Shown here one piece after another: positions 51,863-55,249 of a stretch of 64,000 nucleotides of DNA. The position numbers were made by a program, and so were the translations under genes. The stretch comes from Lutimonas saemankumensis (GTDB lineage: Bacteria > Bacteroidota > Bacteroidia > Flavobacteriales > Flavobacteriaceae), in contig NZ_JAIUZR010000003.1 in assembly GCF_020171465.1 (NCBI RefSeq), positions 1 to 64,000 of the forward strand. The letters run 5' to 3'. The notes under the pieces were generated by a model. That model was given only the letters and a program-made list of their open reading frames with translations. It did not search any database and was not told the DNA's origin. Numbering within the stretch: position 1 is the stretch's first letter; each line of letters begins with the position of its first letter.

Positions 51863-52897
51863 GTGAATTCACTGAGAAAAATATTGTTCCCCTTTTCCCT
51901 TCTGTATGGATTTATTATTAGTATTCGAAACCGGTGTTTTGATTTAGGTATACTAAAATCAAAATCCTTTGATTTTCCTGTAATTGCTGTGGGAAATTTA
52001 AATGTTGGCGGTACGGGAAAGTCACCGATGATTGAATATTTGATACGGATTTTTGGTTCCAATTACAAAACAGCGGTGTTAAGCAGAGGATATTCAAGAA
52101 AAACAAAAGGTTTTTTAATGGCACATGACGGTTGCACGGCAAGGGATATTGGAGATGAGCCTTATCAGTTCTATAGAAAATTCAGTAATTTGACCGTTGC
52201 GGTAGATGAGAAAAGGGTGAGAGGCGTTGAAAAACTTAAAGAGCTCAAACCAGAACTTGAGCTGATTCTTTTGGATGATGCATTTCAGCATCGTTATGTC
52301 AAAGCCGGTTTTTACATTTTGTTAACCGCTTATGACGATCTATATCCTGATGATTTATTGCTTCCGGCCGGAAATTTAAGAGAATCGGTTTCAGGAGCCC
52401 GGCGAGCAGATGTTGTGGTCGTTACAAAATGTCCTTCAGATTTGGATGCGAAAAAGAAGGATGAAATTATCAGAAAACTTTCGACATCTTTTAAGAAAGA
52501 TATATTTTTCAGCAGTGTTGATTATGATGAACATATCCGAAATGATAAAGGAGATGAATTAGAAATAGGTGCTCTTGAGGATTATCAGGTATTACTTGTC
52601 ACAGGAATCGCAAACCCTGCAACGCTTGTAGGCTTTTTGGGAGACCGTAAAGTGGACTTTGAACCCATAAAATATCCGGATCACCTTTTTTTTGGTGTAA
52701 AGCAGCTTAAGGAAATCGAATCCAAATTTAATGGGATGTCTAAGGACAAAAAGCTTATTCTAACCACTGAAAAAGATTATGTTCGAAGTTTCCGCAATAT
52801 TGATCTGCCGGTTTATTATCTTCCCATTAAGACAAAAATAATGGGTGAAGATGAAAAGTTTAATAAATTAATTCAAGATTATGTACGACAAAATTAA
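51863..52897 (+). CDS. lpxK: Tetraacyldisaccharide 4'-kinase
   Basis: LpxK phosphorylates the lipid A disaccharide at the inner membrane. The P-loop is VGNLNVGGTGKSP, followed by VLSRGYSRKTKG and the LILLDDAFQHRYVKA motif. The GTG at 51863 (MNSLRKILFPFSLLYG) fits the family N-terminus best and gives 344 residues. TTG 51833 is an alternative giving 354. It follows ribB closely and overlaps pnp by 17 nt. Confidence 0.93.
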   Translation: MNSLRKILFPFSLLYGFIISIRNRCFDLGILKSKSFDFPVIAVGNLNVGGTGKSPMIEYLIRIFGSNYKTAVLSRGYSRKTKGFLMAHDGCTARDIGDEPYQFYRKFSNLTVAVDEKRVRGVEKLKELKPELELILLDDAFQHRYVKAGFYILLTAYDDLYPDDLLLPAGNLRESVSGARRADVVVVTKCPSDLDAKKKDEIIRKLSTSFKKDIFFSSVDYDEHIRNDKGDELEIGALEDYQVLLVTGIANPATLVGFLGDRKVDFEPIKYPDHLFFGVKQLKEIESKFNGMSKDKKLILTTEKDYVRSFRNIDLPVYYLPIKTKIMGEDEKFNKLIQDYVRQN

Positions 52898-53705
52898 GGA
52901 GACTGGAAGGTTTCTTCTGGATATTGGAATTGAAAAAGCTCAGGTTGGTATTGTTTTAGGTACCGGATTGGGTGGTATAGTCAATATGATTCAGATTGAA
53001 AAGAGAATTCCGTACCACGATATTCCTAATTTTCCCGTAAGCACGGTTTCCGGGCATTCGGGAACCTTGATTTACGGAGAATTATCCGGTAAAAAAGTTG
53101 TAGCCATGCAGGGCCGGTTTCATTACTACGAAGGTTGGGAAATGTCAGAGGTTACTTTTCCGATCCGGGTGATGAAATTCCTGGGAATAGATACACTTAT
53201 TGTTTCAAATGCGTGTGGAGGAGTAAATCCGGAATTTAAGGTTGGAGATGTAATGATCATTAAGGATCATATAAATATGATGCCAGAGCATCCTTTACGC
53301 GGAGAAAATGATGATCGGTTTGGGCCCAGGTTCGTGGATATGCACGAGCCTTATAATTTGGAGATGATAGCATTGATGAAGAAAATTGCTTCGGAAAAAG
53401 GAATTGAGGTTAAAGAAGGAATTTACCTGGCCTTGCAAGGGCCAACTTTTGAAACTCCTGCCGAATACCGAATGGTAAAATTGGTTGGAGCCGATGCGGT
53501 TGGAATGAGTACAGTGCCTGAAGTTATAGTGGCCAAGCATATGAATATGGAATGTTTTGGCCTATCTGTAATTACGGATCTTGGAATAGAGGGAAAAATT
53601 GAGGAAGTATCCCATGAGGCGGTGCAAATAGCAGCAAAATCTTCAGAGAAGAAAATAAGTACTTTGGTTGAGGATTTTATAGGAAAATTGATTCTTAGAA
53701 AGTAA
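52881..53705 (+). CDS. Purine-nucleoside phosphorylase (trimeric, PNP-MTAP family)
   Basis: The 274-residue enzyme has VLGTGLGGIVNMI, the FPVSTVSGHSGTL loop, MQGRFHYYEGW, VSNACGGVNPEF and the C-terminal VGMSTVPEVIVA and ITDLG region of class I trimeric PNPs. It splits purine nucleosides with phosphate to base and ribose-1-phosphate. It is the last gene of the ftsK operon. Downstream hairpins belong to repeated elements better read on the opposite strand. Confidence 0.95.
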   Translation: MYDKIKETGRFLLDIGIEKAQVGIVLGTGLGGIVNMIQIEKRIPYHDIPNFPVSTVSGHSGTLIYGELSGKKVVAMQGRFHYYEGWEMSEVTFPIRVMKFLGIDTLIVSNACGGVNPEFKVGDVMIIKDHINMMPEHPLRGENDDRFGPRFVDMHEPYNLEMIALMKKIASEKGIEVKEGIYLALQGPTFETPAEYRMVKLVGADAVGMSTVPEVIVAKHMNMECFGLSVITDLGIEGKIEEVSHEAVQIAAKSSEKKISTLVEDFIGKLILRK

Positions 53706-53706
53706 C

Positions 53707-53795
53707 AAAGCACCTCCGGATGTAGAAGTGCTTTAGCTTACTAACTCAAAATTAATCATAAATGAAGAACAAAATTTTGTGAGGAATCTTGTTGG
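53707..53795 (-). ncRNA. Predicted small RNA, repeat copy 1
   Basis: Minus-strand transcript of ~89 nt. An invariant 25-nt core lies at 53736-53760. The 3' hairpin (53707-53734) AAAGCACTTCT...GGAGGTGCTTT keeps 11 pairs including two G-U pairs on this strand, which would be A-C mismatches on the other. The promoter match is TTG (53826-53828), 20-bp spacer and TAAATTCG (53798-53805), which would start RNA at the element's first base. It lacks a strong T run after the hairpin. No protein coding supported. Confidence 0.55.
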
Positions 53796-53956
53796 TTCGA
53801 ATTTACGAAATTAATGGTGAGTGAGCAAATATTTTGATAGTTAAATTAAATTAAAGTTATTTTATTACTAAATACACAAAAATAAAAGATCAAAATTATA
53901 AGAAATTTAAAAATATTCTAATTTCCGTTTTGGAATTACGAACTATTAAAAAATGA

Positions 53957-54044
53957 AAAAAGCACCTTTGATTTAAAGGTGCTTTTAGCTTACTAACTCA
54001 AAATTAATCATAATGAAAACAAAATTAGTGGGGAATTTTGCTTC
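53957..54044 (-). ncRNA. Predicted small RNA, repeat copy 2
   Basis: Minus-strand transcript of ~88 nt starting GAAGCAAAATTCCCCAC, with the invariant core at 53988-54012. It ends in a perfect 12-bp stem (AAAAGCACCTTT/AAAGGTGCTTTT) followed by T-rich sequence, a good terminator. Upstream, a TTG at 54070-54072 lies 17 bp from a TA-type box (TATCTACT). The same DNA also matches sigma-54 consensus TGGCAC-N5-TTGCA at 54056-54071, whose predicted start (54045) also falls at the element edge. It is the best preserved copy. Confidence 0.6.
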
Positions 54045-54224
54045 AGTAGATAAAATGCAAATGCTGTGCCAAAATTGAATGCTAATGTTAATATTTTATT
54101 AAATATTCGTTTTTTTATGATTTATTATCCTTTTTGAGGTATTTATCCATAAAAAAAAGAGCACTTCTTAAAAAATAGTAGGCTTCGTTAGAAATGTTTG
54201 AAGAAACATTAAGAGCTATAACAG

Positions 54225-54308
54225 AAAAGCACCTCTCACAGAGGCGCTTTTTGCTTACTAACTCAAAATTAATCATACGAAGTCAAAATTAATGGGGAAT
54301 CTTGCTTC
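54225..54308 (-). ncRNA. Predicted small RNA, repeat copy 3
   Basis: Minus-strand transcript of ~84 nt starting GAAGCAAGATTCCCCAT. The invariant core is at 54253-54277, and the hairpin is AAAAGCGCCTCT/AGAGGTGCTTTT with one G-U pair that exists only on this strand. A TTG at 54335-54337 lies 17 bp from a TA-type box. It begins 72 bp after the lipA stop codon, so it might also be reached by read-through from lipA. Confidence 0.58.
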
Positions 54309-54379
54309 ATTTTACTAAGTATCAAAATCTATACCAAAAATTAGATTTTAAAAGTTAATCATATGTTAATTTCAAATAT

Positions 54380-55249
54380 TTATATTAAATGCTTTTCAGC
54401 TCTATACGAAGAACGTACCAAGGCTCCACTTTCGACATATCTAAAGCCAAGGTTCAGGCCAATCTTTTTATATTTTTCAAATTGTTCCGGTTTTATGAAT
54501 TCATGTACAGGAAGATGCTGTTTACTTGGTTGAAGATATTGACCTATGGTAACAATGTCAACTTTTGCCTTGTATAGGTCATTAAGGGTCTCTATAACCT
54601 CCTCCTCTTTCTCTCCCAGTCCTAGCATAATTCCTGATTTGGTCCTTTTTTGGCCAGAATCCTTTAAGTATTCCAAAACCTCCAGGCTTCTGTCATACTG
54701 CGCCTGTATCCTTACTTCGCGGGTAAGGCGTCTTACGGTTTCAAGGTTATGAGAAATTACTTCCGGTGCCACCTTTACTATGCGGTCAATATTGGTTTTT
54801 ATTCCTCTGAAGTCAGGAATGAGGGTTTCCAGGGTGGTAGACGGATTTGTTCTGCGGATCGCTTCAACCGTTTCTGCCCAGATGATTGAACCTCCATCCT
54901 TTAAATCATCCCTGTCTACGGATGTGATCACAGCATGTTTAATTTTCATAAGATGAATGGAACGGGCTACTTTTTCTGGTTCATCCCATTCAACACTTTC
55001 AGGTTTCCCTGTTTTTACACCACAGAAACCACAGGATCGGGTACAGATATTGCCTAGAATCATAAAAGTAGCAGTTCCCTCTCCCCAGCATTCACCCATA
55101 TTGGGGCAACTTCCACTGGTACAAATCGTATTAAGCTTGTATTTATCGACCAAACCCCTCAGATCGGTGTACTTTTTTCCAACCGGTAATTTGACTCTTA
55201 ACCATTCCGGTTTTTTCGTTCTTGGGGTGATCACTGATTTATCTGACAT
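54380..55249 (-). CDS. lipA: Lipoyl synthase
   Basis: The radical-SAM enzyme inserts two sulfur atoms into octanoyl-lysine of lipoyl proteins. Auxiliary cluster cysteines are Cys43, Cys48 and Cys54 ([20 protein letters not shown]). The radical-SAM CxxxCxxC is Cys69, Cys73 and Cys76 ([13 protein letters not shown]). The terminal RSSYRAE supplies the serine ligand. The 289-residue length is normal. It makes the cofactor reoxidised by lpdA, which is ~11 kb away. Promoter at 55272-55305. Confidence 0.97.

Follow-up and report, generated by a model that had tools for sequence, protein, structure and literature searches.

In enterobacteria the small RNAs (sRNAs) MicA and RybB, which depend on sigma-E and Hfq and pair through short seeds, shut off outer-membrane protein mRNAs at their start region. 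The Qrr sRNAs of Vibrio are several similar sRNAs transcribed from sigma-54 promoters with an upstream activator, sigma-54 being a sigma factor that needs one. The array of three sRNA elements analysed here, from the flavobacterium Lutimonas saemankumensis, would share with MicA and RybB the scheme in which a stress sigma factor directs an sRNA against the start of an outer-membrane protein mRNA, but with sigma-54 promoters and a match of about 47 nt in place of sigma-E, Hfq and short seeds. It resembles the Qrr system in its multiple similar sRNAs, its sigma-54 promoter type and its putative upstream activator, and differs from it in sequence, hosts, targets and signal.

Within the Bacteroidota, the FopS sRNAs of Bacteroides are reported to repress SusC translation, and are described as having 12-15 copies per genome, sigma-ABfr promoters, a single-stranded 5' part and binding by RbpB (PMC11697453). 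As is the case for FopS in that description, the Lutimonas elements are paralogous sRNAs with an intrinsic terminator and a match to the start region of a SusC mRNA; unlike FopS, they occur as up to three tandem copies behind lipA, most have sigma-54 promoters, and their 5' end forms a covariation-supported hairpin and not a single-stranded seed region. Among flavobacterial sRNAs, Rfp36 of Flavobacterium psychrophilum is listed with a sigma-54 (SM4) promoter, as found here, and the third stem-loop of Rfp18 is predicted to pair with metalloprotease mRNAs, a different set of targets (PMC9723704; both compared by description). Among open-access papers, searched by title and start of abstract, we found no description of sigma-54 sRNAs directed against susC in flavobacteria.

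We consider it likely, at a probability of roughly two in three, that the elements are sigma-54-dependent, trans-acting antisense sRNAs of about 85 nt which repress the synthesis of SusC when folding or the envelope is under stress.

Three elements and two kinds of promoter in the PNP-lipA gap

The elements, 84-89 nt long, all lie on the minus strand of the window (the whole stretch of 64,000 nucleotides that was analysed), in the gap bordered by the end of a convergent purine nucleoside phosphorylase (PNP) gene (52881-53705, plus strand) and the stop of lipA, the lipoyl synthase gene (54380-55249, minus strand), which is their upstream neighbour on the same strand and serves as a syntenic anchor. 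Copy 3 (54225-54308) is nearest lipA, copy 2 (53957-54044) is in the middle and copy 1 (53707-53795) is nearest PNP, with model R1 scores of 94.8, 107.1 and 56.7 bits respectively and spacings of 250 and 268 bp between their low ends. Each consists of a 5' hairpin, a core and an intrinsic terminator, the core (TATGATTAATTTTGAGTTAGTAAG) being unchanged across all three, with identity over about 25 nt. This is the arrangement that a first-pass annotation of the sequence had described, and the G-U pairs it had pointed to in the terminator hairpins were recovered as well when the minus strand was folded (two in copy 1, one in copy 3).

The minimum-energy fold comprises two stem-loops supported by covariation and a weak one in the middle. 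Compared with shuffled sequences, the minus strand folds with z-scores of -3.67 (copy 2), -4.37 (copy 3) and -2.52 (copy 1), against -3.43, -1.66 and -1.12 for the plus strand, so that for copy 2 folding alone barely separates the two strands. A BLAST search of the whole genome with copy 2 returned copy 3 (E 6e-19) and copy 1 (E 3e-16); ten matches were obtained at E up to 1, and only the three copies are close kin, the remainder being the reverse strand of the element's own terminator, the susC start discussed below and short matches. Covariance models did not add a convincing fourth copy in this genome; the next-best matches, at C6:114414 (37.9 and 40.2 bits) and C4:467729 (36.4 bits), were at noise level. 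None of the 4227 families of Rfam 15 matched the 64-kb window at the gathering threshold; FopS being deposited in Rfam according to PMC11697453, this gives no indication that the elements belong to the FopS family by sequence or structure. The best of 14 Rfam matches obtained between 53650 and 54400 at E up to 5, rli61, reached 28.2 bits against a cut-off of 50 and was dismissed as chance.

An alignment of the upstream DNA brings out TTGGCAC-N5-TTG, which has the form of a sigma-54 -24/-12 element. Such a box is found on the minus strand before copy 3 (54323-54337, TTGGTATAGATTTTG) and copy 2 (54058-54072, TTGGCACAGCATTTG); the C of the -12 element is kept in copy 2 and replaced by A in copy 3. 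Relaxed to TTGG(C/T)A(C/T)-N5-TTG, the box precedes 28 of the 33 aligned copies (see below); of 20000 equally long windows drawn at random from the same loci, 124 (0.6%) contain it. It ends 13-15 nt before the first base of the RNA in 24 of the 28 box-bearing copies, the other distances being 10 nt (L023, L029) and 0 nt (L031, L034), where the model places the 5' end elsewhere. Further upstream, a TTAA-N7-TTAA direct repeat (54355-54369 for copy 3 and 54088-54102 for copy 2, minus strand) begins 56-61 nt before 24 of the 33 copies, near -59 (1.1% at random), and may be the site of an activator, that is, an enhancer-binding protein. Eleven matches to the sigma-54 activator domain (PF00158) were found in this genome, four of them strong; little weight attaches to the weak matches, as such matches turn up in all 14 control genomes too.

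Neither the sigma-54 box nor the TTAA repeat is present at copy 1 or at its counterparts in two related arrays, L011c and L013c. Instead, copy 1 is preceded by a sigma-A-like promoter (53798-53829, minus strand) made of TTTG (53826-53829), 20 nt and TAAATTCG (53798-53805); across copy 1 and the two counterparts, the upstream motif is TTTG or CTTG and the downstream one, again after 20 nt, TAAATTCG, TATTTTCG or TAATTTGC. These boxes look close to the sigma-A promoter consensus TAnnTTTG given in PMC9723704. In the first copies of L038 and L040 the TTAA repeat is kept and the -24 box is incomplete. The single array thus carries two kinds of promoter. The first-pass annotation was right in seeing promoter-like boxes at every copy, with a start at about the first conserved base that fits the promoter geometry, and its boxes have to be split into a sigma-54 type (copies 2 and 3) and a sigma-A-like type (copy 1). 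It had overlooked the sigma-54 promoters and also the antisense match to susC described below.

The same sigma-54 pattern (TTGGYAYN5TTG) occurs at 63 sites in the genome, and its reverse at 35. Inspection of 42 loci (the first 30 and 12 chosen ones, mostly of the GGCAC type) left ten sites outside long open frames. Two of these belong to copies 2 and 3. Among the remaining eight, four (L101, L115, L339 and L340) lie 57-80 nt before a start codon, the genes being htpG, dnaK and those of an S41 peptidase lipoprotein and an NlpE-domain lipoprotein; of the rest, one precedes a small protein without family, one is 310 nt from a gene and two have no close gene. Sigma-54 promoters have been reported at dnaK, htpG, groESL and other genes of F. 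psychrophilum (PMC9723704), and a computed enrichment of such genes under sigma-54 in Flavobacteriia is given in PMC12316311. Together with the dnaK, htpG and NlpE-like sites of this genome, these reports suggest that the array, too, would answer to stress. One sigma-54-like site, L333 (C4:798787 onwards), contains GGTTTGGTTAGTTGATTT and is followed not by a long open frame but by a strong terminator some 330 nt on; it could possibly mark another sigma-54 sRNA.

Relatives behind lipA and their covariation

To look for relatives of the array, we fetched the lipA neighbourhoods of the best 80 of 569 lipA relatives. The exact core follows lipA on the lipA strand in Lutimonas halocynthiae (L011, three copies) and in L013 (three), L014 and L016 (two each) and L012, L017 and L018 (one each), and a covariance model built on eleven copies adds more distant lipA-side copies in Lutibacter, Tenacibaculum, a Polaribacter metagenome-assembled genome and other Flavobacteriaceae. 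Homologous loci hold one to three copies. In total the element is present at 24 of the best 80 lipA loci, a tally which includes L075 and L087, recognised by their sigma-54 box, with L021 and L024 borderline. The fetched Flavobacterium loci showed no such element behind lipA.

The two sides of the stems have changed together in these relatives. In an alignment of 33 copies (33 matches from 26 sources, fitted to the structure), 20 of the 23 pairs differ on both sides, 93.0% of the cells pair and none of 500 shuffles reaches the score, and shifting the pairing partners abolishes the covariation. In the eleven-copy alignment, which was not fitted, 7 of the 23 pairs differ on both sides, again with none of 500 shuffles scoring as high. 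The proposal of a minus-strand sRNA family with a conserved structure is therefore well supported, and the covariance-model and Rfam searches that had been suggested as a check gave covarying hairpins in homologues, no Rfam match and no additional copy in the genome itself.

The search was widened to 397 genomes of the family. Model R1 matched 14 of them at E 0.01; several of these matches, near E 0.006, lack both a sigma-54 box and lipA and resemble plain terminators. For model R2 the noise floor is about 40 bits, so that its matches in 30 of 40 genomes do not give the number of true copies; only lipA-side hits with a given locus were counted from it. A pattern without any lipA term (sigma-54 box, TTTTCAT and TTTGANTTA) gave 14 matches in 13 of the 397 genomes, some of them close kin of the genomes from which the pattern was taken, and its reversed control gave one. 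Twelve of the 14 adjoin lipA. Of the two exceptions, L217 falls within a coding stretch and looks like a chance match, and L223 (G330 C111:6948-7026) is a second locus, where the copy has a sigma-54 box to itself and the fetched flanks contain no lipA. Core-like sequences (TTTTCATT...TTTGAGTTAGTTA, followed by a terminator) were also seen at places that do not adjoin lipA and lack a sigma-54 box, namely L311 (G026 C3:630721 and 631010, two model hits about 290 bp apart), L138 (G086), L142 (G108) and L319 (G021); these are perhaps part of a wider family.

The start of susC as a predicted target

Leaving the array itself aside, copy 2 has its best match in the whole genome at C1:238345-238391 (82% over 47 nt, E 5e-4). 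The opposite strand there carries the leader and the first codons of a gene for a 1075-residue SusC/RagA protein (TIGR04056, 598 bits), with a SusD-like gene behind it. The match spans 20 nt of the leader, the start codon and codons 2-9 of the target, and the hairpin and core of the sRNA, which gives the array the extended complementarity to a target translation start that is a feature of trans-acting antisense sRNAs. The predicted duplexes with this start have energies of -36.6 (copy 1), -43.8 (copy 2) and -33.0 kcal/mol (copy 3), ranking first, first and second among 198 start regions (mean about -17, sd 4.5 kcal/mol) drawn from the window and from own-genome loci; these were taken mechanically, at the first ATG of every open frame with 120 codons or more, and surely include some non-genes. 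For copy 3 the first rank goes to the PNP start (window 52836-52920), at -33.9 kcal/mol slightly better than susC. Shuffled versions of copy 2 reached -22.7 kcal/mol at best in 500 trials. When the two sequences are compared, the C-rich hairpin loop of the Lutimonas sRNA (CCCCACU) comes to lie opposite AGUGG, within codons 5-7 of the target, and would be a possible first point of contact.

SusC genes resembling this one were found in 20 of the 21 genomes reached via lipA loci, and many of them open with a conserved stretch, AATTAATTCAAATAATTATATA-ATGAAAACAAAGTT. The scan for starts gave none for 2 of 29 rows and placed at least four others within the gene or away from it, and a second set left 1 of 20 regions without a row; we retained as conserved the 22 rows with TTAATTCAAA and ATGA[AG][AG]ACAAA. 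Of these 22 starts, 18 are predicted to pair with the sRNA of their own genome at -34.1 to -41.3 kcal/mol. The weak ones are L190, from the L030 genome (-26.5), and L198, L259 and L261, from the L029 and L025 genomes, in which the sRNA core has drifted (-17.4 to -24.5). Of the starts excluded for lack of the motif, L207 (-26.2), L211 (-24.2), L201 (-22.2), L212 (-20.3) and L263 (-23.2) pair weakly and L213 strongly (-37.4). The last, a SusC-like gene (G398 C115) in the L013 genome, has this energy with the sRNA of its own genome, for which it ranks first of 22.

Both sides of the match are conserved, and co-variation between sRNA and target is not significant: with row and column means removed, the advantage of own over foreign pairs falls short of significance (11 starts, p 0.125), and the raw ranks of own pairs run from 1 to 21 of 22. 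The sRNA of L014 pairs poorly with the conserved starts of other genomes (mean -22.3 kcal/mol). Among 15 SusC genes, synonymous codon identity is 87% in codons 2-5, 64% in codons 6-14, 70% in codons 15-30 and about 50% beyond, so that the DNA of the start is constrained, by the sRNA or by translation, and the needs of translation could by themselves account for the conservation of this region. Of the 397 family genomes, 24 contain the susC start motif (reversed pattern, 0). A lipA-side element was found in 16 of these 24, leaving 8 motif genomes in which none was seen, and in one of 16 motif-free genomes (Fisher p 2e-4), a comparison that involves related genomes, a model trained on some of these genera, hand-picked non-motif genomes and, for inspection, only hits with a fetched locus, the positive G259 being without a box.

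The observations on drifted copies bear on a different reading, in which the elements do act as sigma-54-driven sRNAs by base pairing, with susC as an incidental or minor partner and a core that serves mainly an RNA-binding protein or other mRNAs. The sRNAs of the L019, L025 and L029 genomes keep promoter, hairpin and place and have lost the susC match (only -17 to -25 kcal/mol with the conserved start), and even in L. saemankumensis just one of six SusC genes is strongly matched, the other five above the family cut-off pairing weakly (best -25.6 kcal/mol). An incidental match is nevertheless hard to reconcile with the susC start being the top match of the whole genome outside the array and with the strong pairing at 18 of 22 conserved starts of relatives, and we regard this reading as unlikely. 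More generally, the Lutibacter loci L023, L025 and L029, together with L019 and G002, have kept the sigma-54 box and hairpin and show another core and no clear susC match. Such drifted lipA-side copies may have switched target; no clear new target emerged in the L019, L023, L025 and L029 genomes.

Other readings and the proposed circuit

A cis-acting role, in which the elements would terminate lipA (and PNP), form part of their 3' UTRs or control read-through between the convergent genes, would suit their position just 3' of lipA on the lipA strand, and the hairpin of copy 1, beginning 2 bp past the PNP stop, could end both transcripts. A mere terminator requires no conserved core, however, and each copy has its own promoter motif in addition to a conserved 5' hairpin and core, while the L223 copy has its sigma-54 box with no lipA in the fetched flanks; a cis role is thus quite improbable. 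Still less credible is a core that works as a DNA-level or peptide-coding element (ATG ATT AAT TTT GAG TTA GTA AGC): in copy 2 and several relatives the frame runs open to a TAA or TAG, but ATA or AAA replaces the start codon in L011c, L016a, L017 and L018, copy 3 lacks a stop, third codon positions are as invariant as the remainder of the core, and the stems covary as RNA. The link to Rfp18, raised by the first-pass annotation, has no more in its favour than that both are flavobacterial sRNAs, and we consider identity or direct homology very improbable, given that Rfp18 as described in the consulted part of PMC9723704, where multiple copies are not mentioned, is predicted to pair by a third stem-loop with metalloprotease targets, against two well-supported stem-loops and a susC match here, and that no element was seen behind lipA in the fetched Flavobacterium loci.

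The computations show the elements, their structure, promoter motifs and conservation and the antisense match; from these, under the preferred reading of stress-induced antisense sRNAs against susC, we infer the following course of events. Stress would lead sigma-54 RNA polymerase and an enhancer-binding protein, probably bound at TTAA-N7-TTAA, to switch on copies 2 and 3, with copy 1 providing a basal level from its housekeeping-type promoter. The single-stranded core would meet the leader of the susC mRNA; the 5' hairpin, itself antisense to the first codons, would open and the duplex grow over the start codon. With the start codon covered, ribosomes would be kept off, blocking translation of susC and probably also of the susD-like gene behind it. 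The outcome would be a smaller load of outer-membrane proteins during folding or envelope stress, a reading suggested by the sigma-54-like sites that also precede dnaK, htpG and the NlpE-like gene. The sRNAs themselves may have arisen when the start of susC was duplicated in inverted orientation.

Little is known of how Bacteroidota throttle SusC-type transporters under stress, FopS of Bacteroides being the sRNA example that we found. The array offers a candidate flavobacterial circuit in which the sigma factor, a putative activator site, the RNAs and a target can all be named, and which would be cheap to test. As a tentative extension, which we put at somewhat less than even odds, part of the Flavobacteriaceae may have built from sigma-54 an independent counterpart of the proteobacterial sigma-E/MicA-RybB system, in which tandem sRNAs behind lipA, as inverted copies of a susC 5' end, would silence several SusC transporters together in envelope or folding stress through the leader and first-codon address that these share, one copy having moved to a housekeeping promoter for basal control. 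If true, the same logic of stress sigma factor, sRNA and outer-membrane protein would be realised in these bacteria with different parts.
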